A stretch of 64,000 bases of DNA from Amphiura filiformis (taxonomy: Eukaryota > Echinodermata > Ophiuroidea > Amphilepidida > Amphiuridae). Shown piece after piece: positions 16,252-64,000 of this stretch. The DNA lies in the NCBI RefSeq assembly GCF_039555335.1, contig NC_092628.1, positions 60,561,547 through 60,625,546 on the forward strand, in the 5' to 3' direction. Under the pieces are notes generated by a model. That model had not been told where the DNA came from. It did no database searches and saw only the letters and a program-made list of their open reading frames with translations. A program made the position numbers and the translations under genes. Positions within the stretch are counted from its first letter, which is position 1. Every line of letters begins with the position of its first letter.

Positions 16252-17434
16252 TCTATACTATTAAAGAGGAACTTGCCGATAATCGATACTGATCGATACT
16301 TTGAAGAGGAACTTGCCGATGGTGCCGGTGGCCCGCTTATTTACTGTCCGTTGCTGCGTTGCTATACGCGGATTACGCACAGGTCGTGGCAACTTCCCGA
16401 CGCGCTAATGGTAACAAAACTTCCAGTTTCATCTAAGACGGAAAATATCACATCGTGGTGACTTTCGATGGAGAGTGGGCATTATGCGGCATGGTAACCG
16501 CAACCGCTATAATAATAAATCAACTGCATTCGTTTATGATAACTTTCGGAAACTTCTTTTGTGATGACTTTCCGCAAACTTTAAATTCAAGGTAGGCCTA
16601 GGCATATATTGGAAAGTAATTTGAGTTTATTCGTTTGTCATGTTGTGATGAATTTCGATGGGGAGTGTGGGGCATTATTAGCATGGTAACCGCAACCGCT
16701 ATAATATCTCAACAATGGCGTAGATTTCTTTTTGACATTGGGGGGAGAGATGAAAACATTTCTTGAAGTAGGCATATTAATAGTAAATCTTTTGGCAACA
16801 TTAACAATGGCGTAGATTTCTTTTGACATGGGTGGGGGGATGGGTCCGTTTAAATCAATTTCTTGCAATAGGCATACAGTGAAGCCAGCATCTTGGCGAC
16901 AGAATAATTTATGGCAAGCTAATTAGGCCTACTGGTGAATTATATTGTGCAAAAGTGGAACAAATTCGCACGAAGACCGCAAAAATTGGCACTTTATAGT
17001 TTGGCCAAAAATGAGGTTAATTTTGTCAGAAACCCACATCTATTATACATGTGTCAACTTGGGGGTGATTGTGCGGATCATTGACCTTATCAAAATATTG
17101 CGGGGGGGGGGGGGGGTAAGAAAGAGAAAAAGAAAGAGGGAACGAAAGAAAGAAAGAACGAAAGAAAGAACGAAAGAAAGAAAGAAAGAAACAAACAAAC
17201 AAACAAACAACGGGAAAGGAAGAAAGAGAAAGGAAGAGAGAAACGAAAAGAAAGAAAGGGAAAAACAAAGAAAAACTAGACAGACAGAAAGAAAGAAGAG
17301 AGAGAGAGAAAGAAAGTGAACGAGTAAGAACAAGAAAGAGAGAAATGGAACGCAGGAAAGAGATAAACTGAAAGAAAAAGGGAGGAAAGACAAAGAAAAA
17401 ATAAGTAAAAAGGGGAAGAGGAAAGAAAGAGGGA

Positions 17435-17466
<32 letters not shown>

Positions 17467-18170
17467 GAAACAACGGGAAAGCAAGAGAGAGAAAGGGAGA
17501 GAGAAACGAAAAGAAAGAAAGGGAAAGACACAGAAAAAATAGAAAGAAAGAAAGAAAGAAAAGAGAGAGAGAGAAAGAATGTGAACAAGCAAGAAAAAGA
17601 AAGAGAGAAATGGAACGCAGGAAAGAGAGAGAAACTGAAAGAAAAAAGGGAAAGACAAAGAAAAAATAAGTAAAAAAGGGGAAGTAAAGAGGGAAGGAAA
17701 GAGGGAAAGAAAGAGGGAATGAAAGAAAGAGAACCAACGGTAAAGCAAGAGAGAGAAGGGGAGAGATAAACGAAAAGAAAGAAAGGGAAAGACAAAGAAA
17801 AAATAGACAGACAGAAAGAAAGAAAGAGAGAGAGAGAAAGAAAGTGAACAAGCAAGAAAAAGAAATAGAAATGGAACGCTGGAAAGAGAGAGAGAGAGAG
17901 AGAGAAACTGAAAGAAAAAAGGGAAAGACAAAAAAAAATAAGTAAAAGGGTGTTTACGCAAAAGGATTTTATGCTAAAGAAGTCGTTTGCAAAGTAGATG
18001 CAACAAATATAGGCCTACCACATCACTAACCGCGTAATAATTGAGCTGTTAAAAGCGATACCAATTGCCATGATAACCATTTCCATCGTTTATACTAATC
18101 GCTCCCGTTTACTAACCGCTCCCATTTACTCATCTAGCGGGGGCCCGCGCGAAGCGCGGGTACCCGCTAG
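16252..18170 (+). mobile_element. Non-autonomous Helitron inserted in the LINE 3' region
   Basis: It begins TCTATACTATTAAAG right after an A (16251) and ends CTAG right before a T (18171), the A^T insertion and TC...CTAG termini of Helitrons, with no target duplication. A GC-rich hairpin (cccgcgc-gaa-gcgcggg, 18144-18160, with an outer GCGGG/CCCGC pair) sits about 10 bp before the 3' end, as expected of the Helitron terminator. No Rep/helicase is encoded. The interior has internal direct repeats (gaggaacttgccgat twice; catggtaaccgcaaccgctataat twice; caatggcgtagatttctttt twice) and an ~850-bp polypurine tract. Confidence 0.88.
17101..17945. repeat. ~850-bp polypurine (AAAG/GAGA) tract
   Basis: The plus strand is almost purely A and G (gaaagaaagaaag, gagagagagaaag) with scattered c/t, preceded by a G-run at 17102-17116. 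Higher-order repeats of about 250-300 bp are visible: the phrases gaaatggaacgcaggaaagag, gggaaagacaaagaaaaaata and aagtgaac(a)agc/taagaa(c)aag each recur three times. Long minus-strand frames here (up to 311 codons of S/F/L) are composition artefacts. Such tracts can form triplex H-DNA. Confidence 0.9.
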
Positions 18171-18376: not shown

Positions 18377-19320
18377 TTAAGATGCTTCAAGATCAATGGT
18401 CCATTTTTTGAAATGGAGCCGCAGTTTACCTTTACTTTCAGCAATTTTATACTCAATTTTCTGCTTCAATTTGACCATATTCAGAAAGGCATTGAAACTA
18501 AGGTTAGTCTGTTTAAATCTGCACTTATGAATGTAAAATTTAAGGCACAGAAAAAGGAAATTAATACAAAGGTCATGTTCTGAGGTATCCCTGATACCAA
18601 ACATTTTATCAAATTTGGAAAATGTAAAAGAATCCCCAGTGACACTGTTAATATAAAAACATAGTTCATCCCACATGGGAGACACATTCTTGCATTCACA
18701 AAATAAATGCAAAATTGTTTCGGGCAATTCATTACAAAAGTAACAATTGGGTGAATCCACCCTACCAATTCTGTGAAGAAAATTATTTGTACAAATTGCC
18801 CTATGAAAAACTTTAAAATAAAAAGAGCGTAACTGGGTTTCAATAGTACATTTAAAATTGCTACTATGCACACAGTTCCATTCAATTTCATCAAACACAT
18901 CCAGACAATCAACCCATTTGTTTTCAGCTTCAACAGTGGCTTGGTTCCTAAGAGTTGAGTAGGCATGTTTTGAAACCTTCTCTGCATCTAAAAGCGAAGC
19001 AGAAATAAAATCAAAATGTTTTCTTGAATGTTCTTAGGGTTCTGGAACCAATCCAAATAAATCCCATTCATTAAATAATTGTATTTTCTCCTGTCTTTAA
19101 TGGAAATATCAAATTCTAAAACCAAATCTTCAAAGGTTTTAACTAAATTGTGACCCATATAAAGATCTGAAATGCAATGGATCCCTTTTTCATCCCAAGT
19201 AGGGTAAAAGAAAAACTTTTTGTTTTTAACCGAACATCTTTGTTCCACCAAATTGGGTCCTGGAGATGGAAATCGGACCAGTTTAATTTTTCCTTCATCT
19301 TGCATTTGTATAAATACCAT
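18377..19320 (-). pseudogene. LINE ORF2 C-terminal fragment (zf-RVT region), frameshifted
   Basis: Minus-strand frames at 19320-18988, 18987-18481 and 18898-18377 together give a decayed reverse-transcriptase C-terminus. The first part (YPTWDEKGIHCISDLY) resembles the segment before the zinc-binding domain in Tx1/L1-like LINEs. The second (FKVFHRAICTNNF, then CYFCNELPETILHLFCEC, then MWDEL) has the C-x2-C...H-x3-C layout of the zf-RVT domain. At least one frameshift separates the parts. The clade call is by resemblance only. The polymerase catalytic core is missing because of 5' truncation. Confidence 0.8.
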
Positions 19321-19482: not shown

Positions 19483-22329
19483 AAATGTGTGTAAAAAATT
19501 GCCGACAGACATACCCTAATTTTGTTTAATGCTATACGCCAATCAAACAATTTTTTAAGGCCTAACGGTAATAAAGTTGCCCAAAATGCGGGGTTACTTT
19601 GGTCAGGCTATTTTAACCCCTAGGGAACCCTTAAAAAATTAAAAAAAAAATCTTTTTTAACTTTAAGGCGTAGGGGGGAACATTAGAAATATAATTGATT
19701 TTGTGGGGCAAATTGACCACAGTTTAATATCCCATTTTACCCATGCCGTCAGCTTCCAAAGCCCAACAGCTCAAAATTCTGGGCCTGGGGGAACATACCC
19801 ACCAAAATGTTTCGATGTGCCCCCAAAATCATGGTCCCATACACTGATATAGGCCTACTACTAGGCACTGAACAAATGCTAAGCGAGCCTAACGACTCAA
19901 CTCCTGGCCTGGCCCTGTTGACACGGGGGGGGGCTCAATAATTTTGATGAGGGGGATTCACCTCAGCATGCACCCCGCCAAAATTGTTTGGTCTCAGCTC
20001 CCCCCCCCACCCTCGAAAATCTTAGCCAACGCAACCGTGTGATAGGCCTATAAAAGGTCGATGGGTCGATGCTTTGTTTTGACTGCAAAACCCCGATTGT
20101 TTTGGTGCGTGTTTTCTAAAAATAGCATATGATGTAGCTATAGTTGTATATGACGTCAAGAAAACTAGCAAATTCAAGGCCCAATCAACGTTATTTCTTC
20201 GCGTGATTGTATTTCCCAATAAATCATGATAAATAGTGTTGAAGGCATTTAAATTTCGAGTTCCGTATAGGCGAGTTATAAGCCAGATTTCATGGAAACT
20301 GCGTCGGTTGGTAGTGGTACTGGTGCCATGGTGAGCTTGCAGTGTACAGCCTGTCCCAAAATAAAACGCATGGCGAATAATTTTAGAAAAACCGTGAAAC
20401 CTATATGTATTTTGAAACTACCGTAAAGAAGGATAACGAACTGAGCCTTTATATTTACACTTTTAAATAGTCTATTTCACTTCAATTTGTGGTTTATAAC
20501 AGTGGCGTAGCCAGGATTTTGGAACCGAGGGGGCACAACTGGTAAATGTAGGCCTACCGACGGAAATATTTTTACCGACGGAAGTTATGATTTGTTGACC
20601 CAAAATGTTTTTGTATGGTTTGAAAAAGTGAAGAGCAAACTAACGGGGCTACTAACATAAAAACACATACATTTTTAGGTAGGCCTATAATTCACAATTT
20701 TTCATCATTTTTTTACAATTCTAACCTTTCTACCATGAAAAATAGTCTATTGTTAACCCAATTTTTTTTCACCAACGCCTTCCGTCTACCGACGGCCTTA
20801 CAAAAATATGTTATTATTAATCACGATGAACGCATTCCGTTGAACTCAATATACTTAGGCTATGTTTGATAGAATTAAATTGTTCAATAGTATATAAAAT
20901 GGTCATAAAGAGTTTATATACATGTAATTAGATGATTAGTGACAATAAAGGTTATATTGAATGCAACATATCTTGCATAATTACAATTGCTCACTTAATA
21001 TTGAACAATTCTGATTTTGGAATCTAGGCCTACCAGTTTATGTTTATTGATCGCGAAAGCCCGAGTAAAACTTGGGAAGCTGAAGCTAACAAACAGAGGG
21101 AGTACGGTGACTCAAGTGAACGGAGAAGTCAATTTAACCTGCCCAAAATTACTTGGGGGGGCTTTTCCTGAATTATTCTCGAAGTGGGCACTCGCAGTAG
21201 GTTATTGGTACGGGATAGGCCTATGCATTAGCGCCAATCCGGCTTAATGGGGAGGGGGGTCTAGCCTGAATCCTTCTGCCCTCTAATGGCGGCGCTTTTT
21301 TTTTTACCCACAATAAAAATCCTTCACATTGCACACTGAGTGGAGCGGCCGTGCGTGAGTACGGTATTCGAGGACTGGAGGATCGAGTCTACGGGACCGG
21401 CCAAAATATTTTTTTAAAGTGGCTGAACTTTGAACAAAAAATGGTTAATTTTGCCGAAAGGGACATGTCCCCATCCCCACCCCCATGGGTATAGGGCCTA
21501 TGTTTAATGCCTTGTCAGGCTCTCGCGACAGTTCTGAAAAACCGGCCCATTATGATCAGAGATCAGATTTGATGGTAAAAAAATAAACCCTACCATCTCA
21601 ATTTTTGATTGGCCACCACGGGAAAAATGGTCATCGGGGCCAGGAAAGGGTTGGTGGTCTGAAACTTGTGGGTCTTTTTATGGCTAGGCCCCTCAAGAGT
21701 TGAAATTCTTAGAGGGTGCGGGAAACTGTTGTTGAATTGATAAAGGAATCATGACCCATTAGCCAATTTAAAAATTTCCCCCAAAGCTCCACAATCTTGC
21801 ATGAGTAAAGGGGGGGGCGGGGGTCAAGTTGGCATGGGCAGTCCGTGGGCCCGTTATCCGGAAAGGGGAGCCTAGTTTTTTTCGGCCAAAGGGGGGCGCG
21901 ATTTTTTGCAGACCATTTTGAAAATTGACCACCCCGGGCCCGGGGTAGGCCTAAATTGCACCACCTCATAAACCCGGGCTCATAAACCAGGTATGGGCCC
22001 AATGCGCCATCCATTTTTAACTCAGACTGTATGCAACTCGTCTTTATTCAACTCACTATTTAGCAATGTCTCACTGTGTGCAGCGCTCTTGTATTTCTGA
22101 TGCAATCTTGCCGTTGCCTGGAACCGAACTACTTCTATTTTTTGAGCATGTTAATTCGCCATCGATAGATCAAATATAGTTCCCTATTGCATTTTTACGT
22201 TTTAACATTTGATATGTATTCAATATGGGTAGTAAGAATGTTGTAATGTTTTATAGATTAATGACTCGAAATTAAAGGGAAAAAACTAAAATTACCCCGA
22301 TATAAAGCGTCCTTTGAATCTTCAGCGGA
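19483..22329. other. Intergenic, eroded repeats
   Basis: No gene was supportable. A cagtggcgtagccagg motif near 20500, common at the edge of DNA transposons, starts a block with repeated accgacgg phrases (20569-20790). G-rich and C-rich stretches with many TAGGCCTA octamers fill the rest. Frames at 21017-21247 and 21709-22014 lack any recognisable domain. Confidence 0.5.
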
Positions 22330-22560
22330 AGATTAATTAAACATCAATCAATAGTTATCCGGTTCGTGGCACAGCTGCCACGCTTGTTGCCTACTTCCGG
22401 GTTCCGCATTCATTCTCCAAATAATCATGATAGAAAGAATACGAAGAATTCCAGAAAGGGACCAAAATAGTGTCAAAATGGCAGAGTGACGGTAAAGCAA
22501 AAGCACGGCTAAAACAAAGCAATTCGGCACGAATTGCCCCGGCAAATCTACAAAAATGGC
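22330..22560 (+). other. ATF4: Candidate first exon / leader of ATF4
   Basis: This more GC-rich, CpG-containing patch ends in caaaaatggc followed by a consensus donor GTAAGT at 22561. It contains two ATGs in good Kozak context (22478 and 22556) that behave as upstream ORFs when spliced to the exon at 23946. No other donor between here and 23946 looks as good. The transcription start and the 5' boundary are guesses, and splicing to 23946 is inferred, not shown. Confidence 0.5.
22478..22489 (+). promoter_or_regulatory. ATF4 uORF1 candidate (3 codons)
   Basis: ATG GCA GAG TGA with A at -3 and G at +4. In vertebrate ATF4 mRNA a first uORF of three codons allows post-termination scanning to resume, which is the positive element of stress-induced translation. 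Length, order and context match that role. It depends on this stretch being transcribed leader. Confidence 0.5.
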
Positions 22561-24132
22561 GTAAGTATAATATGCTTTTATAACGAAATAAAAAGCCGCA
22601 TTCTCGATAAATAAAATGTTCACGTTCGTCAATGCATGGCCACATATGGCAGGCAGCTCCCGCCACATCGTTGCCCCTTTTGTTTATTAAATTGTCATCA
22701 CAGTATAGGACTATAATACCTTAAGTTATACAATAATGTTGCATTTCCATGTACAATATGAGTTGATATATTTTTTCGTAGTATTTTAGAGTACATTAAA
22801 CAATGTAAAACATGCTTTTATGGCTTTTGAAACTGAAAGTTCAACTTGCACAACAATGCAATGCATATGGTGCGCCCCTCATATGCATGCTCAGTCAAGC
22901 GTCGTCATCGTGATCACGACTGTCTCACGTTCTAACTACATGTCATGGGTCTGTCATACACAGCCATGCAGCATGTCTGATTTTGTCTGTATTTTATTAT
23001 ATTGATCAGCCTCAAATTGTGTCCTTTGTTTGATCCCTGCCTGGGAGGGTAAAACCGGGGGGGTATAAAAAATGTTGGCAGGCCAAGAGGGCAAAACCAT
23101 TTTGGCAGGCTGAGAGGGGGGGCAGCAATTTTTGTTTGGCATGCCATTTGATAATTTTACTCATAATTATTGCACAGCCCCTTGCCATTTAAAAAGCATA
23201 TCAAGAACATCACTGTCTGAACATTATTTAAACTGAAAACTATTTAATACGCAGAAATGAGCTCCTGGCCTGGTTCCAAAGATAGCTTCTGGTCCTATAG
23301 TTTGTAACTAGTGTAAAATATTGGACACACCAGGAGCCAAAACTGGGCAACCATGGGGTAAAAAAAAAAAGCCGGAGTGTGTGCTTACTAATTAATATTT
23401 GGAAGTGAGCTATTGTTGGAATATCTTTCTTGGATCATCATGGATGCAGGTATCAGAATCCCAGCAGAGCAGACATGACAGAACTTGTAAGCTAGCATAG
23501 TCTTGAATAATTGATCTACACAAAGCTAAAGCCCCACATGAATCTTGTTTTCCAAATCTGCCTACAATAATATTAAATATCCAAAAATATTATAAAGCCA
23601 TCTCAGGTTTTGTTTTTTTGTTGTTACTCACTCAGACCATTTTCCTGGGAAACAATAATTCTCAAAGAATTCTTCAGAACATTAAAAAAGGCCATGATGG
23701 AGAGGGTAACAATGTCATGATGTCCAGGGATTTCGTAATGTTTAATCACCAAGTCTGTCAACAATCAAAGACCCATGAGACATGGATGATCTTGTCAGTA
23801 TTTTTATCACCTCAAAGTCCAGCTGCTTTTAAGAAAAAGAATAAGGAAACGCATTATGCCCCTCTAACTTCAATTCATGCCCCTGATCAAACTTATGAAT
23901 AGTCAATAATGTTAATTATTTAACACCTTGATTTCATTCATACAGGTTTCGCACGACAAGCACCCCCGACTTATCCCCGGACCAGCAACGGATCGGTTTC
24001 AACATCCAAGACAAAGATTTATTTTTCTTACAAAACCTAATACCAGCAAGTCAGAATGGATCCATTCTCGACAGACGCGGAATGTCTTCTGTCCTCGCTC
24101 TTGGGCGAGGCACCCAGCATCTGGTTGGATGA
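22556..24132 (+). promoter_or_regulatory. Second upstream ORF across the leader splice (63 codons)
   Basis: ATGGC at the end of the candidate first exon joins GTTTCGC at 23946 to open a frame of 63 codons ending TGA at 24130-24132. The start is in strong context (aaaATGG). The stop overlaps the in-frame ATG at 24129 as ATGA and lies 17 nt before the preferred ATF4 ATG at 24150. If the splice is right, ribosomes reinitiating here would finish just upstream of, or overlapping, ATF4. It rests wholly on the inferred junction 22560/23946. Confidence 0.4.
22561..23945 (+). other. Presumed first ATF4 intron
   Basis: Bounded by GTAAGT at 22561 and tacag at 23941-23945. It contains no exon I could support. 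Near 23030-23130 are short repeated G-rich phrases (ttggcaggc twice). Frames at 22820-23005 and 23618-23902 have no recognisable content. Confidence 0.45.
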
Positions 24133-24149
24133 CTTGTCAGCTGACCAAG

Positions 24150-26978
24150 ATGGGGAAAAGTGCCATCGGTACTGGGGAGACTTCAGCTTCGGATCTATTC
24201 AGCGAACTGGAACAGGCAGATTCTCTTTTAGGTAAAAGCTGTAAGCAATGTAAAGTGCAATATGAAAAAATGTTTAGGCCCTTGAAACTTGAATCAAAAA
24301 AATTTGGTTGCATTGCATTTTGCGTTGTTATTGTTTTTATCAATAATCAATATAGTTAATGAGCTAAAATGACTGGAGAAGCTCATTAACATATAATTTT
24401 TGCCAATATTTTGTTTAAAATCCATGCATAAATGTTTAGGGTACTTTTATTTTGCATACTTTTGCCTTGAAACTTGGTCAAAGTGTTTCTAATGTGTTCT
24501 AATGTATTGTACAATGAAGCCGCCCCCTAATTTGCATAATAAGCATTTATGTAAATTAGCTCATTAATTATGCAAATTAGAGGGCGGCTTCATTATATAA
24601 TACATAAGAACATATTAGAAACACTTTGACCAAGTTTCAGTGCAAAAATATGCAAAATAAAAGTACCCTGAACATTTTATGCATTGATTTTTAGCAAAAT
24701 ATTGGCAAAAATTACATATTAATGAGCCTTTGCAGGCCTTTTAGCTCATTAACTACTGTAAAACAAGTTAATTTCGCGAGGTATTTAATTTCGCGAATTT
24801 CGCGAGGTCTACAAATTCGCGAAATTAAATACTCATGAAATTGATCCTTGAAAACACACACAGAAAGCTTAAAACAAGCTTTATGTATTTTAAGCTTATT
24901 CTGTCTACACAAACCATCATATTTATATCCATTTACATCGCTCAGAATACAGCATGAAATTAATTTTTCATGATGCATGGAGGTAAAGTAATATTTTAAT
25001 TTTATTAGTGCACATCCATTTTGTTAATTTTTCAGTCTTTCTGGACTTATTTTGACGTTCTTTTTTGATATATTTTCTGGTATTTTTCTTATCAAATCGG
25101 CCATCTTTAACCCCCCTGAGCACTACCTGCCAATCTAACATTGCCTCTGATTGGTCAATTACGTGATAGCTTCATTTTAATCACCAATCAGAATGGAGCT
25201 TTGCAAATAATTTTTTTGCATGGTGAAATTATTCTAACAATGTTGCTGATTGGTCCAATCGATAATGAAAGCTTCTTTTTGGCCAATCGGCAGGTAGTTC
25301 TCATGGGGTTAATTTGTTTATTTCTGAACTCCAGTAATGCACCAACATCCTGAAATAATAGGTTAAATCCACGTGTCATTTAAAAGCTATGCATGGTCTT
25401 CAATCTTTAGGAAGAGGAGAGGAACTTAGGCTAATTTGTTACAGCATTGTGGGTAATAGGCAAGGGGCATTGGGAATAAGGTAATCAAATATGGCCGATG
25501 GTCAAACTCGGAAGTGGTAAAATATCGCAAAACTATCATGAAAATAGACAGTCAAAATGACAAAATATATAAAAAATCAAGGTTTAATCTGAATTACTAG
25601 ATATTCATTGTACATTATAGGCCAAGAAAAGGGAAATTTATCCAGTGTTTAGAGGGATGTAAACGGATAGAAATATTAAAGTTAGTGCAGAATTCTGTGA
25701 AGTTCAAAATTTGGCATACTTTGTAGGTGTAAGCTTATATCGAAATTGTAAATTCGCGAAATTAAATACTCGCGAAAATGTCGATCATCACCAATTCGCG
25801 AAATAAAGTACCCGCGAAATTAAAGTGTTTTACAGTATATTGATTATTGACAAAAAGAGCATATAAATTGATGTGTTATGGAAACCATATGTCCGATTTA
25901 CTCAAAACAAAAGTCATATTGATCAGTGTACTTTACCCTACTCAATTAATCTGTTTAAAACATGCTCAAAGCATTTCCTAATTTCTAGAAAATGCATCCA
26001 ATACCACCTTAACTTAACATATAAAAATAATTTGGGGTGAACTGGTGATACACCTTAGTTGCACATATGTTGACCAGGAAAATACATGTTTTATTATTTG
26101 CAGGTGATTCTGAACCTCTTCCTGAATGGATGTCGGAGAAGGTCTCCCTAGCCTCGTGGCTAGAGGCAGTAGACACCAAACCATCAGACCTGGTAATGGA
26201 GTCGTCTCTGCCATTAGACCCATCAAAATTGGATCTGGGTACCTCCTTGGAAGTACCCATTCCTTCAGAAGAATTACTCGACACACTTATTGTGGACACA
26301 AGGTTTGCACCCCAGCCCCCTTCTCCAGGGGAGGCACAGGCTCCTGATCTGCTGGCTCTTTCTCCAGCGAACTCATTGTTTGGAGATGATGCATCATATT
26401 CCAGCCCTTCTCCCAGCCCAAGTATTGGTAGTCCAGTATCTCCAAGTTCAAGCAATGAGAGTCCAGCATCCCCATTTGAACTCGTTCAAGAGCCTGCAGC
26501 CTCCACTAACCATGGAGATGTGAACCTGACAACGATTGATGCCAGTGAATTACTCAAGAGCATTGTACAATCGCCCACTATTACTAGCGGTGATATACCT
26601 TTGAACATTAATGGCGCCTCAATTGAAGTACGGATTGTTATAGAGCCACCTACATGTACTGCTGAAACACCACCTGCAGTAGAGATGGAAACTCCTAAGC
26701 AGAAGTCTAGAGCAAGGCCGAAAGTTAAGTCTGTGTCTGACCCAGTGATAAAGAAAAGCAAGAAGCGAGATCAGAACAAGCGAGCTGCAACAAGGTATCG
26801 GCATAAGAAGCGTAGTGAGCAGGAAGTGCTAGAAGATGAAAGGGATGGGTTAGAAAAGACCAACAAAGACTTAAATGATAAGGTGGACTCTATTTCAAGA
26901 GAGATCAAATATCTCAAGGACTTGCTTGCAGAGGTGTACAAAGTGAAAGGGGAGATAAAGGTTATGCAGAAGCGTTAG
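24150..26978 (+). CDS. ATF4: ATF4-like bZIP transcription factor
   Basis: CDS joins 24150-24231 and 26104-26978 (957 nt, 318 aa). ATG 24150 has strong context (aagATGG); ATG 24129 in the same frame is a weaker alternative adding seven residues. The first exon gives an acidic stretch (SDLFSELEQADSLL) continuing across the splice into GDSEPLPEWMSEKVSLASWL. A Ser/Pro-rich middle follows (residues ~95-150). The bZIP is at 244-318: basic region KRDQNKRAATRYRHKKRSEQ, where NKRAATRYRHKKR matches the ATF4/ATF5 signature, then heptads L270, L277, L284, I291, L298. ATF4 is the effector of the integrated stress response, binding C/EBP-ATF composite sites to drive amino-acid and redox genes. Two coding exons with an overlapping uORF fit the family. 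No canonical DSGxxS degron was seen. An AATAAA at 27632-27637 is a plausible poly(A) signal. Confidence 0.88.
24355..24754. repeat. ~400-bp palindromic element in ATF4 intron
   Basis: The left arm (agttaatgagctaaaa, then gctcattaaca..., ttgccaatattttg, gtgtttctaatgtgttct, gaagccgcccc) is mirrored on the right (ggcggcttcatt, agaacatattagaaacac, caaaatattggcaa, ttttagctcattaact). The centre is near 24555. It is a foldback MITE without coding potential. It would form a long hairpin in the pre-mRNA, within the intron right after the uORF-bearing exon. Confidence 0.85.
24756..25845. mobile_element. TIR element with TACTGTAAAAC ends and AATTTCGCG motifs
   Basis: The left end actactgtaaaacaagttaatttcgcg is inverted at the right end (cgcgaaattaaagtgttttacagtata). 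TTCGCGA / AATTCGCG phrases are repeated several times inside both ends (24769-24835 and 25745-25825). It is about 1.09 kb, and the interior frames (25141-25353 and its antisense) are unremarkable. It is a non-autonomous DNA transposon within the ATF4 intron. Confidence 0.75.
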
Positions 26979-31180: not shown

Positions 31181-31681
31181 TCATAAATGACGCATGTGGT
31201 TTTCATGTGTTTCATGCCCATATGTTACCAGCGGATTTGATAAGGAAACGGCAACTGCTGAATCCTGAACAGTTCCAATAGCGTTATTATTATTTTTATA
31301 CAAGTCCACCATGTTCACTTTAACTCCATATCTACACCTTACAGCAAACATTTCACATCCATAAAATTGTAAATTGTACCACTCCACTCCAACCTGCTCT
31401 AAAGCAGCTTCAACGATTTTCTCGGACTCCAAAGCAGGATATTTCAGTACTTTATGTTTCAAGTTATTAATTCTAACTAGACTCCCGCCAGCCGCAGACA
31501 AAATATGTTCTTTCTTGATCCACGGTTGTTTTACGTGAACCACACTCTCATCTCCAATGTAAACTGCCCAGTGATTAAAGCTGCACTTTGGATGGTTAAT
31601 TTCTATGAGGTCACCAGGTTCACACCTTTCCAGTATCCGATCAGCAGTGAAGAATTTATTATTCACGGTGCCCATGCTCAA
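31181..31681 (-). CDS. LRAT/PLAAT-fold (H-rev107-type) acyltransferase-like protein
   Basis: A single uninterrupted frame of 166 codons. The LRAT/NlpC-P60-type fold is shown by EPGDLIEI (residues 21-28), the histidine motif NHWAVYIGDESVVHV with H37 and H49 twelve residues apart, and the cysteine motif FYGCEMFAVRCRYG with C109. These match the His-His-Cys catalytic set of PLAAT/LRAT enzymes, where the usual motif reads NCEHF. Family members move acyl chains between phospholipids and amines or lysolipids at membranes. Length is normal for PLAAT (160-170 aa), but I see no hydrophobic C-terminal anchor; the tail is polar and His-rich. The start could be M1 or M3. No introns are visible, so it is either a genuine single-exon gene or a retrocopy that stayed open. 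Substrate is unknown. Confidence 0.82.
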   Translation of the reverse strand: MSMGTVNNKFFTADRILERCEPGDLIEINHPKCSFNHWAVYIGDESVVHVKQPWIKKEHILSAAGGSLVRINNLKHKVLKYPALESEKIVEAALEQVGVEWYNLQFYGCEMFAVRCRYGVKVNMVDLYKNNNNAIGTVQDSAVAVSLSNPLVTYGHETHENHMRHL

Positions 31682-51300: not shown

Positions 51301-54300
51301 ACAAAATTCCTCTTTAACCCAATATTTGTGGAAGAAAGGCCCAAATCCATGGAGTTGGGCCTTTCTTCCATGAAAACCATGATTAAGTGTACTTGAAAGA
51401 CTATTTAGAGAGTGGATTTTGGCTCATATTTCACACACAAGGAAGAACAGTATGCTGGCAATAAAATGCTGGGGGTAACGCATTTTAGTAAAAAAAGCAA
51501 TTGTAGTTGGGCCTTTCTTCCACTCAGGTATTCATTATTGTGAACATTATAAAAAGTTGCTGGTACAGTCCATCATGCCAAATCTACAAGGCCTTGCCAC
51601 ACTTCACATATTATTGTTTACATCACAGTGACCCAAGATGTGGGTGTGGTTGATCTGTTTTGCTTGGAATAAAACTTGTGATCTATCCATCATCTGCCAC
51701 AGGTTTATTTGATAGTTTGGTATCTTTCATTGGTAAAACAACATAAATCTATCAGGCTTACATAGAAAAAGTAGAATTGTCAACAAAATGACCAAAAATT
51801 GTAATAAAATAATAATTTTTTTTCTTCTCTGCAGGCATGGAGCATAATAGTCCTCAATATCTTCATCATCTGATAGAAGCTTTCCGTTTAAGCTTTACTG
51901 ATGCCTTACAATACTGTGCTGATCCAGAGAAGGCAAATGTTCCTATTGAAGAACTCCTTTCTAAACGCTATGCTGCTAAAAGAAGACAACTAATTAAAAG
52001 TGACAGGTGGGTAGCCTTTCTTCCTCTTCCACCTTTTCACCTTCCCCTCTGTACCTCTAGTTACAAATATAGTTAAGACTCCGAGCTAATGTCATCAGAT
52101 TCTAAACATCAGATGCAGATTTCATTGTATCTAGTTAGGCATACAAAATCCACCATAATAGGTGAAATGTGCTGATAATCAAGGCAAATATACACAAAGA
52201 TGACAGATGGAAATTGTCTTGTGCTTTTACCAGCAGGATCATCAGTTGATTGCCACCTGTCTTGGGGAGTATTTCTCATAATCAAATTGAGACACCACCT
52301 CTAGCTGATGAGCTACTTTGTGGTAAAGTGGATGGGTGGATGTACGGCAGACTCGCATCAGTTTCAGGCAGTCATGTTTTATGTTGTCACAAAATGTCAA
52401 TAAAGTGGTTTAGAGAGGGGTGCCTTTTCAAATATTTCCAAAAATGTAGAACAATGTGCCAATTGTTCATATTTTAAAGCAAAATTGTCAACAACAAAAA
52501 TATTTGCAAATTTATTTTCATTTGAACAGAACCATCTGAAAGTTGAGATCACTTGACAAATGGATAAAGATAACATTTCTTCTTATTACAGGTCTATGCC
52601 AGATTGTTCCCATGGTGACCCAGCAGACGACGGAGATACTGTGTATTTCAGCATTGTGGATGAAGAAGGTAATGCATGCTCCTACATCTGTAGTAACTAT
52701 CAAATGTTTGGTACTGGTTTAGTGCCTGACGGATGCGGATTCACATTACAGGTAGGTTCAGTATTTTCAATATTGCTGTAAACGAAATGATTTGGATCGT
52801 GCATTCTTTTAAAGAACAAACATAAATTTTAACAGTATAAAAAGAGTTAACATTTGTTATGTGTATGCATGAAGAGTGAAAGTATGTGGAATTTTGATCA
52901 TTTCAAATAGTATGTAGGATAATCATGCTAAATGGGAGGATTATCTTGCTTAGCATAATAAGCATGTTTTAATTTCAGACAGAGAATTACTAAAGAAATG
53001 AGGAATGTGAAATTTGAAGGTGCCCAAAGAGGTGCCTATGGCACTTTTTATTGTATCCTGAACAGTGCATACGATTTTTATTTAAATGCAAAACTATAAC
53101 ACTATGCAACTGTTATTTATTATGCTTGTTACAATTTATTACATCTCCAGGAAGTGATGTTAAGAGTCATCGGTACCAAATCGGGCACCGATAGTTTTAT
53201 AGAACCAAATTCAATGCGGTGCCTAAATAAATTGCATTAAGATTAGATTATCTGTGTTCTGAACTTCTGGTGATCTTGACTATGTAACTCAAGCATAATT
53301 TTATGTGCAACACCAGTACATGCAGGCTAGCCATATCCTAATGTGAATGCAAAACTTGTCAACCAGACATCTTGTCAAGATCGTTCACCAGCCAATCAGT
53401 AATTATATGCAACACATTGCCTACTGCATGCCACGCTCTGTGCACTGATTTGAGAACAAGCATATTTACCTACTGATATATTTTGACACATTTTGCAGAA
53501 TAGAGGTCATGGGTTTTCAAAAGATCCAAATCATTTGAATGTGGTTGCTCCAAATAAGCGTCCCTTTCACACAATCATTCCTGCCATGGTAACGGATGAT
53601 AAGACAGGAGAATTACTGGCTAGTTATGGAGTAATGGGAGCGTTTATGCAACCTCAAGGACATGTTCAGGTAAGAGTTAGAGCAGACCCACACACATATA
53701 ACCCTTCCCTTCACACACACCCCCACCCCCACACACACACTCACATCCCACATCCCTACCCAAACTGTGTCAACTGGAGATATGCATTGTTTAGTACCCT
53801 GTCATGATGCACACAATACATACATTTTATAATGGCAAAATGAATCAAAGCATGTTATGTGCAGTATTTGACCATATAAAGAAAATGACCCCAAAAAAGT
53901 GAATCCTGATACTGACTTAATTCAGGTAAATGGAACTCAAATTTAGTCTTATTTGAATGGTTTTCCTAATGCTTGCCAATGGACATCAGTTCACCTACCA
54001 CATTGCATCCACCTATACTTCATCTGAAAGCTGAGTGAGAATAAAGTTTTGTAGATTTTGTAGCTGAGAGAGAGAAATTGACATGCCATTTCTTCTGAAA
54101 TATTAAACGGTCATTTGTGTTGTCCAAAATAATTTCAAAAGTAAACATAACATGCATCTATAAACTGATTCAAAGCAACAAATTTTCATTATGATTTCCC
54201 CACTGCAGGTTTTACTTAACATGGTTGAATTTGGTATGGATCCTCAGCGAGCTCTGGATGCACCTCGTATCAGAGTACAAGTCACCCAAGATGGCTGCCT

Positions 54301-54550
54301 GGATGTCGCAAGAGTAGAGGACGGTATCCCAGAGGAAGCCATCAAAGAACTACAGGTCATGGGTCATGATGTTTTTGGACCAATCAAAGGTCATCACAGG
54401 TGGATGTACCAATTTGGTAGGGGTCATGTTATTACTGTAGGTAACTGGTGGGATAAGTGGGAAGGAAGATTGAAACAAGAAACAGGGACAAAAGTATTAT
54501 GGGCAGGATCAGATCCAAGGGGGGATGGTATTGCCATGGCTCAAATCTGA
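42329..54550 (+). CDS. Gamma-glutamyltransferase-like protein (YwrD-type), complete, 10 exons
   Basis: Exons: 42329-42431, 46480-46633, 46948-47101, 48343-48526, 49714-49805, 50651-50891, 51835-52006, 52592-52751, 53499-53669, 54209-54550. All have AG/GT borders and compatible phases, and the 1773-nt CDS (590 aa) ends in TGA. Exon 1 gives [20 protein letters not shown], and its trailing G completes E of [20 protein letters not shown]. Then come [46 protein letters not shown] and, at the autoprocessing site, [19 protein letters not shown] with presumed catalytic Thr383. [14 protein letters not shown] and [15 protein letters not shown] follow. GGT enzymes (Ntn hydrolases) cleave gamma-glutamyl bonds of glutathione and related compounds. 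No signal peptide or membrane anchor is visible, unlike extracellular animal GGTs, so a cytosolic or other location is possible. Exon 1 lies 4 kb upstream but fits in phase and homology. Confidence 0.88.
42756..43123. repeat. 370-bp palindromic element in GGT-like intron 1
   Basis: aagggggtactattatacccct..., tgcctatttttgcatttttctc, aaaattata, gacaagtaagatatgtatat, aggggcaaggactacaacta pairs base for base with the right arm (tagttgtagtccttgcccct, atacatatcttacttgtc, ataatttttgagaaaaatgc, aggggtgtagtacccccttaa). The loop is about 110 bp. One extra copy of tgtagtccttgccccttac sits outside, at 42642-42660. Confidence 0.9.
43483..44706. mobile_element. Possible 1.2-kb TIR element in GGT-like intron 1
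   Basis: aagggggccatgactatgtca at the left and tgacagcccccctaaaac at the right are a rough inverted pair, and tgacccc / atgacccc phrases recur near both ends (43550-43600, 44650-44670). Long stretches between them show no coding capacity. Boundaries are uncertain. Confidence 0.45.
45235..45863. mobile_element. Palindromic TIR element, family C (copy 2, compact)
   Basis: TTAAGGGATCTAGAACGAGCG at the left, ttcatacccctttcccttaa-like sequence at the right, and arms of about 300 bp each that are inverted copies (cgaattgcattctgaatacg against cgtattcagaatgcaattcg; aagtgtatgtaactgggagg against cccacctacatacactt). The tip has lost part of the stem. It shows the uninterrupted junction used to date the LINE insertion at 16-19 kb. 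Confidence 0.85.
47421..47942. mobile_element. MITE family D, copy 1, in GGT-like intron 3
   Basis: gtaccgtattcgttccaata and tattggaacgaatacggtac are perfect inverted ends, continued by agcgccc / gggcgct. Just inside, agcgcccacccagcgactttg and aagcgcccacccaaaatgactttg are direct-like repeats. 522 bp, no coding frame. The ORF at 47231-47557 crosses its left end and is spurious. Confidence 0.88.
49294..49540. mobile_element. MITE family D, copy 2 (decayed), in GGT-like intron 4
   Basis: taccatatttgttccattaa ... ttaatggaatgaatatgata keeps the family D ends with several substitutions, and agcgcccacccagcaac and cccaccgaaaatgactttgt match the interior of copy 1. About 250 bp, internally deleted. 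Confidence 0.8.
50939..51534. mobile_element. 600-bp inverted-repeat element in GGT-like intron 6
   Basis: tgaatacctgagtggaagaa at the left and ttcttccactcaggtattca at the right are perfect inverse ends, followed by gggcccaac / gttgggcc. The same word recurs twice internally (gttgggcccttcttccacta at about 51133; gtggaagaaaggcccaaatc then gttgggcctttcttccatg at about 51326-51372), so several hairpins are possible. Non-coding. Confidence 0.85.
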
Positions 54551-62100: not shown

Positions 62101-62723
62101 CACAGGGGCCACTCAATGTTTTTGCCTGCAATGCTGCACGCCTGAGAGTACCGTGTGTAAATTTTACGGGAACGCTGAACAGAATACTATTAAATATTGG
62201 AAAATATCCAGGAAAATATTTCTTTCATATATTACAACGGTGAAAAAGGCCAGAAAAATAACATTCTAAGACCAAGGATTTACTACGGATTATATATTAC
62301 TGGTGTTTAAAAAATATTACTTGATGTGAGATAAATATATTTGCCTCTTGATATATACCTCGGAATCTATTTATATCCGCAATCCCTGCTGCACTACGAG
62401 GTCACCGTGAAGAAATATACGGATTGTATTGAACCAGCAGGCGCATGCACGTATATACACACGTCGTTCATCAACGACGATATCTACGGGAGCTAGCAAT
62501 AGCTTTTGTTGTTGATGGGAACATAATTTAATGCTATAGTCGCCGGTCGCGTCAAAAACGTGTAACAAACACACAACGCCCGGTGGAAGCACATGAAAAT
62601 AATTCTACGTGTAGGATTTTTGGATACTGTATGATATGTTTTGATATAAGTGTAGTTTGACCAGGTGGTTTGGAAGCTGATGGTTTGAACTCGACCTTTT
62701 TGCGAAGATTCCGTGGCTATGAT
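59110..62723. other. Intergenic sequence and FBXL16 5' region
   Basis: AT-rich with no supportable gene up to about 62 kb. A TIR element lies at 61036-61427. From about 62030 onward the sequence turns more CpG-containing and probably holds the promoter and 5' UTR of FBXL16. An in-frame TGA at 62658 limits the coding start to downstream. Confidence 0.5.
61036..61427. mobile_element. 390-bp element with GGTCTCTGTAACACTTTTTA ends
   Basis: gggtctctgtaacacttttta at the left is inverted as taaaaagtgttacagaaaccc at the right. The interior is a lattice of gtgtttac / gtaaacac and aaacattt / aaatgttt words, a texture like the 40.4-kb element. The ORF at 61184-61417 is a by-product. Confidence 0.75.
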
Positions 62724-63955
62724 ATGAATACGGCCACTATACAACAGACTCTAAATGCTATGAATGGTTTGGCAGCCATGAATAGTAGCAATCCAGTTTC
62801 AACTGTCAGTGCCCCGGGGCCCGTCATACAGAGTACTAATAACAACCAGGCGACGACAGTTACACCACCTCAGAAGGGAATCCCTCCTGCAGTCAAACCA
62901 AAACCACACGTGAATACTACCAACATCACTGGAGCGAACCGTCCAACGCCGACTGGTGCTGAGGCTAATGAAAATGCAGCAGGTAGGAAAACGAAAGTTT
63001 CAAAGACGAGTGATGACACCATGGCGAATGGTGATGATGAAGACCATTCCGTAGGAGCCCGAAGACTGTCGTTACAAGCCCAAAGTCTTTCAGAACTGAT
63101 GATGGAAGATCGATACTTACAGAGGTTATTCTATTATTTCTCGGCGTGTGAGAGGTGTACACTAGCTCAAGTATGTAAAAGATGGAGGGCGATGGCGTAC
63201 AATTCCAGATACTGGAAGTATGTCACTCCGATTCTTCATAAAAGAGATCTTTATGATGATACGGATGATGGTGGCAAGATGTTCACATCGCTGTCAAGTT
63301 TTGAGCAGAGAGGATTTGAATCCGTTTGCCTGGTTAGTGTGTCGGACTTGGACATTTGTGAGTTCATCGATCACTGTCCAAAGACAAAGAAGACTCTGAG
63401 AGGTATCTCCTTGAAAAGATCGACAGTAACAGATGCGGGTTTAGAAGTGATGCTAGAGCAGCTAGGAGCAGTCACTGCTCTAGAACTCAGTGGTTGTAAC
63501 GACTTCACCGAAGCAGGCCTCTGGTCCAGTCTTCAACCGCGAGTAACATGTCTTAGCATCAGTGATTGTATCAACGTTGCTGATGAGAGTGTAGCAGCCA
63601 TTGCCCAACGCCTACCAAATCTCCGAGAGTTGAATCTCCAAGCTTATCACGTCACCGATAGCGTTCTTGCCTATTTCCCAGCTCGACCCAATGGTCCCAT
63701 GTCTATTCTGAGGTTAAAGTCCTGCTGGGAGCTCACCAACCATGCGGTAGTCAACATCGTCCACTGCCTTCCTCAGTTAGTTGTGTTGAGTCTAAGTGGT
63801 TGCAGCAAGATAACAGATGAAGCCGTGGAGCTTATTGCAGAGAATATGAATCAGTTGAAGTGTCTGGATCTGTCCTGGTGTCCTAGGATCACAGATGCGG
63901 CTCTGGAATATATCGCCTGCGATCTGCCCAAACTGGAAGAACTTGTACTTGATAG
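62724..63955 (+). CDS. FBXL16: F-box/LRR-repeat protein 16, first coding exon (3' partial)
   Basis: ATG 62724 is the first ATG after the in-frame stop at 62658. The exon encodes 410 codons plus two bases and ends at a donor (ag|gtaag). Residues 1-125 are low-complexity Asn/Thr/Pro-rich. The F-box follows at about 128-170 ([20 protein letters not shown], then [12 protein letters not shown]), then [13 protein letters not shown], and leucine-rich repeats with the AMN1/FBXL-type cysteines ([73 protein letters not shown]). These are close to vertebrate FBXL16 across the exon. FBXL16 lies in the SCF F-box family, though vertebrate FBXL16 has been reported to act partly by stabilising client proteins. 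The remaining LRRs lie beyond the window. An upstream non-coding exon is possible. Confidence 0.92.
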
Positions 63956-64000
63956 GTAAGTTTTAATCAGATGCATACAATCTGTTCAGTTATACCTTAC

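Follow-up and report, generated by a model that had tools for sequence, protein, structure and literature searches.

Does the ATF4-type gene on the forward strand of the 64,000-nt stretch of DNA analysed here (the window, in which all coordinates are positions) have the translational switch known from animal ATF4 leaders, and which of its upstream open reading frames (uORFs) would operate it? A first-pass annotation had proposed that the vertebrate switch was kept here "down to uORF lengths", with a 3-codon uORF1 and a 59-codon uORF2 that overlaps the coding sequence (CDS). One part of that proposal stands: the gene is of the ATF4 type and its leader has, on the evidence of its sequence, the ingredients of a delayed-reinitiation switch. 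The part concerning lengths was over-read. On balance, it is somewhat probable that this three-exon gene is an ATF4/ATF5 co-orthologue from an animal outside the vertebrates, and that its leader operates in the manner already known for metazoan ATF4.

In the proposed mechanism, the short uORF1 (from ATG 22478, or its 20-codon extension) would be translated, after which ribosomes would resume scanning. In the unstressed state they would reinitiate at a long uORF in strong context (22556 and/or 24056), which, read in another frame through the ATF4 start or as far as it, would block initiation there. When eIF2alpha is phosphorylated, initiator tRNA would be reacquired late, the starts of the long uORFs would be bypassed, and ATF4 would be initiated at 24150 or 24129. 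The structure of the transcript, its translation and its response to stress are what we infer from the DNA.

The gene and its leader

The protein encoded by putative exon 3 has PDB matches at E <=0.001 to only two distinct sequences, i.e., ATF-4 (1ci6_A, E 1e-14) and a DISC1-ATF4 fusion, and its bZIP is that of Pfam PF00170 (bZIP_1, E 5.4e-13). The identity of the bZIP is about equal to ATF4 (40/71 residues) and to human ATF5 (37/65). Thus, the gene is, by its sequence, a member of the ATF4/ATF5 bZIP family, and its equal closeness to both proteins is what one would expect if it goes back to before the vertebrate duplication, which fits the earlier label "invertebrate". Relatives of the spliced product (318 residues) were sought among viral contigs (4 stretches fitted a pattern, 0 were relatives), and those of an 84-residue bZIP piece among genome contigs (78 stretches, 0 relatives).

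The splice-like sites named in the first-pass annotation (22561, 23946, 24232 and 26104) are all present in the sequence. Donors were scored with a donor matrix and ranked among the 3,566 GTs of the window, and acceptors were given an ad hoc score. By these measures, donor 22561 scores 1.76 (top 4.4%), donor 24232 (TAG/GTAAAA) scores -0.08 (top 10%), and acceptors 23946 and 26104 are in the top 2.5% and top 5.1% of the AGs in the window. An alternative donor at 24241 (GCT/GTAAGC), 9 nt downstream of 24232, scores higher (1.40 vs -0.08), and by inspection its use would preserve the ATF4 frame. Upstream of putative exon 1, TATAAA can be read directly at 22301-22306. A perfect 7-bp inverted repeat (CGTGGCA-CAGC-TGCCACG, 22365-22382) lies close to the presumed promoter or within the leader; it forms a hairpin within a 36-nt piece (-11.5 kcal/mol, z -1.04) and includes CCACG half-sites of the type known from endoplasmic reticulum stress elements. 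The folding of exon 1 is unremarkable (z -0.52).

When the spliced leader is translated from all of its ATGs, six are found upstream of 24150: 22427, 22478, 22556, 24056, 24082 (nested within the 63-codon ORF) and 24129. Those at 22478, 22556 and 24056, like that at 24150, have an A at -3 and a G at +4, i.e., uORF1 and uORF2 have starts in good context. The frames, their contexts and their phases relative to one another are seen directly. The ATG-GCA-GAG-TGA of uORF1 is present just as first described, and the ATG at 24056 does open 59 codons, spliced or unspliced: joining 24231 to 26104 gives the stop TGA at 26105-26107 (G/TGA), and reading on into intron 2 gives the stop TAA at 24233-24235; hence the length is the same with the intron removed or retained. 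The proposed 94-nt offset and 86-nt overlap relative to 24150 are likewise correct, in the +1 frame. However, the first ATG in the bZIP frame is 24129 (weak context) rather than 24150 (strong context), which renders the CDS start ambiguous on sequence grounds (325 codons from 24129, 318 from 24150). From 24129, the offset from 24056 becomes 73 nt and the overlap 107 nt, so that with either start the 24056 ORF is a long frame overlapping the CDS out of frame.

The two-uORF layout first described is incomplete, as ATG 24129, the extension from 22427 and the 63-codon uORF from 22556 had been missed. The extension and the 63-codon uORF, together with two negative comparisons, weigh against a leader that works in the proposed manner. 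Firstly, the 3-codon ORF at 22478 has the length of a short uORF1 that permits reinitiation (2-3 codons), yet its putative exon holds a further ATG in its frame, 22427 (A at -3), from which the ORF has 20 codons and ends in MAE; a 3-codon uORF1 would depend on a transcript that starts downstream of 22427. Secondly, the additional 63-codon uORF opens 66 nt after uORF1, ahead of the 24056 ORF that had been named uORF2. Thirdly, no similarity could be detected between the 24056 peptide and that of human uORF2 (score reached by 1188/2000 shuffles). Fourthly, the overlap from 24129 is no more stable when folded than its shuffles (z 0.45; z 1.02), unlike human SL3, the stable stem-loop in the uORF2/ATF4 overlap, for which there is no evident counterpart here; nearby, 24056-24135 has z -0.32 and 24078-24160 has z -1.76, with 12/200 shuffles as stable.

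A cleaner leader, lacking the 22556 or the 22427 start, would result from a different transcript, i.e., one that uses donor 22492 or begins downstream of 22427. With a score of 1.25, donor 22492 falls little short of 22561 (1.76), but 22561 is the better match and the TATAAA suggests a start near 22330, and such a transcript is unlikely.

To estimate what chance alone would give, the dinucleotides of the leader were shuffled 20,000 times while the CDS was left unchanged (5,000 times for the strong-context ATGs). An overlapping out-of-frame uORF alone appears in 51% of the shuffled leaders and the number of ATGs is average (6 observed, 6.25 expected), as it would be if the leader ORFs were chance open frames without a regulatory role. 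However, a 3-codon uORF appears in 12.6%, and one followed in order by an overlapping uORF in 5.3%; strong-context ATGs are enriched (4 observed, 24150 included; at least 4 in 90/5,000 shuffles); and conservation of the arrangement has been published (PMC4176352). A chance origin is highly improbable. The lengths are a different matter. A 3-codon uORF together with an overlapping uORF of 55-63 codons is found in 0.62% of the shuffles, and with one of exactly 59 codons in 0.055%, but given the ATGs at 24056 and 24150 and a fixed CDS, 59 codons is the sole overlapping length possible, and is reached in 40%. Thus, the 59-codon match to the human leader adds little beyond the position of the ATG, and the proposed match in lengths to vertebrates was over-read: the 3 needs a start downstream of 22427, the 59 is set by a fixed stop, and the start of the CDS is ambiguous. 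Lengths of uORFs that equal the human values can mislead, one stop codon having set the 59 here.

Which frame may act as uORF2

Taking the sequence as it stands, the overlapping uORF is the 24056 ORF, and the 22556 ORF would be an additional barrier ahead of it. The 22556 start (ACAAAAATGG) lies five bases before the end of exon 1, and its ORF crosses the intron 1 junction to a stop TGA at 24130-24132. Neither uORF peptide (59 and 63 residues) has a match in Pfam at E <=1, and the 59-residue peptide has weak PDB matches only (best LAMTOR1, E 0.38).

The role of uORF2 is disputed by a second reading, in which the 24056 ORF may itself be the N-terminus of ATF4. According to this reading, which is possible though doubtful, 24056 is the true ATF4 start and the role of uORF2 belongs to the 22556 ORF; a break of the frame by one base, near 24130-24165, would set the N-terminus apart from the bZIP frame and make it pass for a 59-codon uORF; the break could be an assembly error, an allele or a change in the lineage. 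The beginning of the ATF4 protein would then hold MDPFSTDAECLLSSLLGEAPSIWLDD, whereas the sequence as it stands gives a start near MGKS.

The geometry of the 22556 ORF speaks for this second reading. In the human leader, uORF1 has 3 codons and is followed after 87 nt by a uORF2 of 59 codons, with an offset of 97 nt, an overlap of 83 nt and the +1 frame; the strong-context 22556 ORF opens 66 nt after uORF1 and, relative to ATG 24056, has an offset of 115 nt, an overlap of 77 nt and the +1 frame. However, it extends as far as 24056 in 39% of shuffles, and aligning the nucleotides with those of the human leader gives no significant match (108/1000). The 22556 peptide shares a DKD.F.L segment with human uORF2 (59/2000 shuffles), although the bZIP frame of exon 2 upstream of 24150, an untranslated stretch that served as a control, comes near it (90/2000), and a comparison in which no relation was expected, of the 22556 ORF with the N-terminus of ATF5, gave 111/2000. 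Similarly, the first 30 residues from 24056, aligned ungapped from Met with human ATF5, reach a score matched by 1495/100,000 shuffles, and the conserved WM falls at residue 67 when counted through both frames, versus 66 in ATF5. Against these stand the local alignments of the 24056 peptide to the N-termini of ATF4 and ATF5 (1777/2000 and 1195/2000) and the ungapped comparisons with ATF4 from M1 and M17 (72,599/100,000 and 19,929/100,000), none of which is significant; the favourable matches were selected from a set of 12 local alignments and 3 ungapped comparisons.

The composition of the 24056 frame can be considered in the same manner. Its first 33 residues include 8 acidic and 0 basic ones, a bias matched by 4/17,049 overlapping noncoding open windows, but equally acidic stretches were found in 0/873 right-frame windows of five coding stretches. 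These five, among them the second of the transpeptidase stretches and the LRAT stretch, also served to train a codon score. The first 24 codons from 24056 score 0.405 (0.124 and 0.171 in the other frames), a value reached by 79/8,881 random open windows and, leaving out one gene at a time, by 126/918 right-frame and 6/390 wrong-frame windows. Up to about 24160 the score favours the 24056 frame, and from there on that of the bZIP, with the best change point at 24158-24161, close to a GGGGAAAA stretch. However, the score is poor at separating frames (means 0.138 right and 0.080 wrong, likelihood ratio 2.0, with overlapping windows), by this measure the 22556 ORF resembles a wrong frame (0.75), and a selected or conserved uORF2 peptide would yield the same pattern.

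The sequence as it stands is put ahead of the second reading because the latter requires a frame break that nothing else in this sequence shows. A combination of the two is very unlikely: through a one-base change, an ancestral N-terminal coding segment of ATF4 (from 24056 to about 24158) would have become a further overlapping uORF, with the start moved to 24150 or 24129 and the ancestral uORF2 at 22556 retained. If such a break in the lineage were real, the leader would have two long inhibitory uORFs in series.

Splicing of 24056 into the bZIP frame was considered and rejected: of the seven GTs in 24059-24232, one has the right phase (24084), and it scores -8.1, versus -0.08 for 24232. An alternative acceptor at 26078 (right phase by hand count) ranks lower (top 14.8% vs 5.1%). 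In human cells, ribosomal frameshifting from uORF2 into ATF4 has been ruled out, according to PMC11058473.

Feature coordinates and the rest of the window

Table 1. Positions of the putative ATF4 gene, its leader frames and other features in the window
Feature	Position	Strand	Basis or remark
Putative exon 1	22330..22560	+	Start as guessed in the first-pass annotation; donor GGC/GTAAGT at 22561
20-codon uORF, shares the frame of uORF1, previously missed	22427..22489	+	Leader translation
uORF1, ATG GCA GAG TGA, 3 codons, strong context	22478..22489	+	Read in the sequence
Alternative donor ACG/GTAAAG, would remove ATG 22556	22492..22497	+	Top 5.8% of window GTs
63-codon uORF, strong context, previously missed	22556..24132 (spliced 22556-22560 + 23946-24132)	+	Leader translation
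Putative exon 2	23946..24231	+	Acceptor top 2.5%, donor top 10%
59-codon ORF, uORF2 as first described, or possibly the ATF4 N-terminus	24056..26107 (spliced 24056-24231 + 26104-26107)	+	
ATF4 CDS	24129..26978 (spliced 24129-24231 + 26104-26978)	+	Pfam PF00170, PDB 1ci6_A
GGGGAAAA stretch near the change of coding-like frame	24152..24159	+	Read directly; best change point 24158-24161, low power
Coding part of putative exon 3, carries the bZIP	26104..26978	+	PDB and Pfam matches
ORF with reverse-transcriptase-associated zinc-binding domain	18377-19033	-	PF13966, E 1.2e-8
LRAT-domain ORF	31181-31681	-	PF04970, E 6.1e-19
Gamma-glutamyltranspeptidase, two open stretches	53487-54550	+	PF01019, E 1.1e-14 and 1.7e-9
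F-box/LRR protein ORF, near the window end	62661-63959	+	PDB F-box/LRR-repeat protein 2, E 3.2e-28

Intron 2 has nested fold-back repeats, with arms at 24430-24540/24567-24677 (92%) and 24353-24432/24676-24755 (88%), surrounded by outer inverted repeats at 24334-24354/25836-25856 and 24754-24790/25801-25837. From their sequence, the repeats of 24334-25856 resemble insertions of miniature inverted-repeat transposable elements (MITE-like). Elsewhere in the window, the ORF with the zinc-binding domain is probably a remnant of a retroelement, and a purine-rich AAGA array at 17118-17947 has a 264-nt higher-order unit in 3 copies at 87% (17160-17947). Scans of the window for tRNAs and, at the gathering threshold, for Rfam families found none.

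Comparison with known ATF4 leaders

The closest comparison is with human and mouse ATF4. The human leader used for comparison agrees with the motifs and positions printed in PMC11058473. The gene described here shares with these an ATF4-type bZIP, a 3-codon uORF that starts with Met-Ala, a long overlapping uORF in the +1 frame and more than one in-frame ATG at the start of the CDS; the offset of the 24056 ORF (94 nt) is close to the human value (97 nt), both being in the +1 frame. It differs in that uORF1 is lengthened by an in-frame ATG, in the extra 63-codon uORF, and in that no SL3-like stem-loop was detected, and the human uORF2 peptide is, weakly, nearer to the 22556 ORF than to the 24056 ORF. 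Distinguishing uORF2 from the N-terminus in one more invertebrate ATF4 would indicate whether the uORF2 peptide (the DKD.F.L segment) is conserved.

In Drosophila S2 cells, reporters showed that the two ATF4 uORFs act oppositely, and uORF2 of crc/ATF4 overlaps the CDS in a different frame, as here; the overlap there is 125 nt, whereas here it is 86 or 107 nt, or 77 nt if 24056 is the ATF4 start (PMC4433282).

In PMC4176352, a survey of metazoan ATF4 leaders (those of arthropods, Aplysia and Hydra among them), a short permissive uORF1 is followed by a long uORF2, as in the leader described here. Extra upstream starts occur there too: arthropods have a weak-context upstream ATG ahead of uORF1, and other animals have a third short uORF overlapping uORF2; in contrast, the extra ATG here shares the frame of uORF1, and the extra uORF is a long one. 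None of six deuterostome names occurs in the main text of the same survey; within this check and a literature search that combined ATF4 and uORF with sea urchin, no previous account of a leader of this sort came to light. That survey had already reported paired uORFs of ATF4 from various animals, and by its sequence the leader described here is one of this established kind, extending the reported conservation of the translational control of ATF4 to a further animal lineage.

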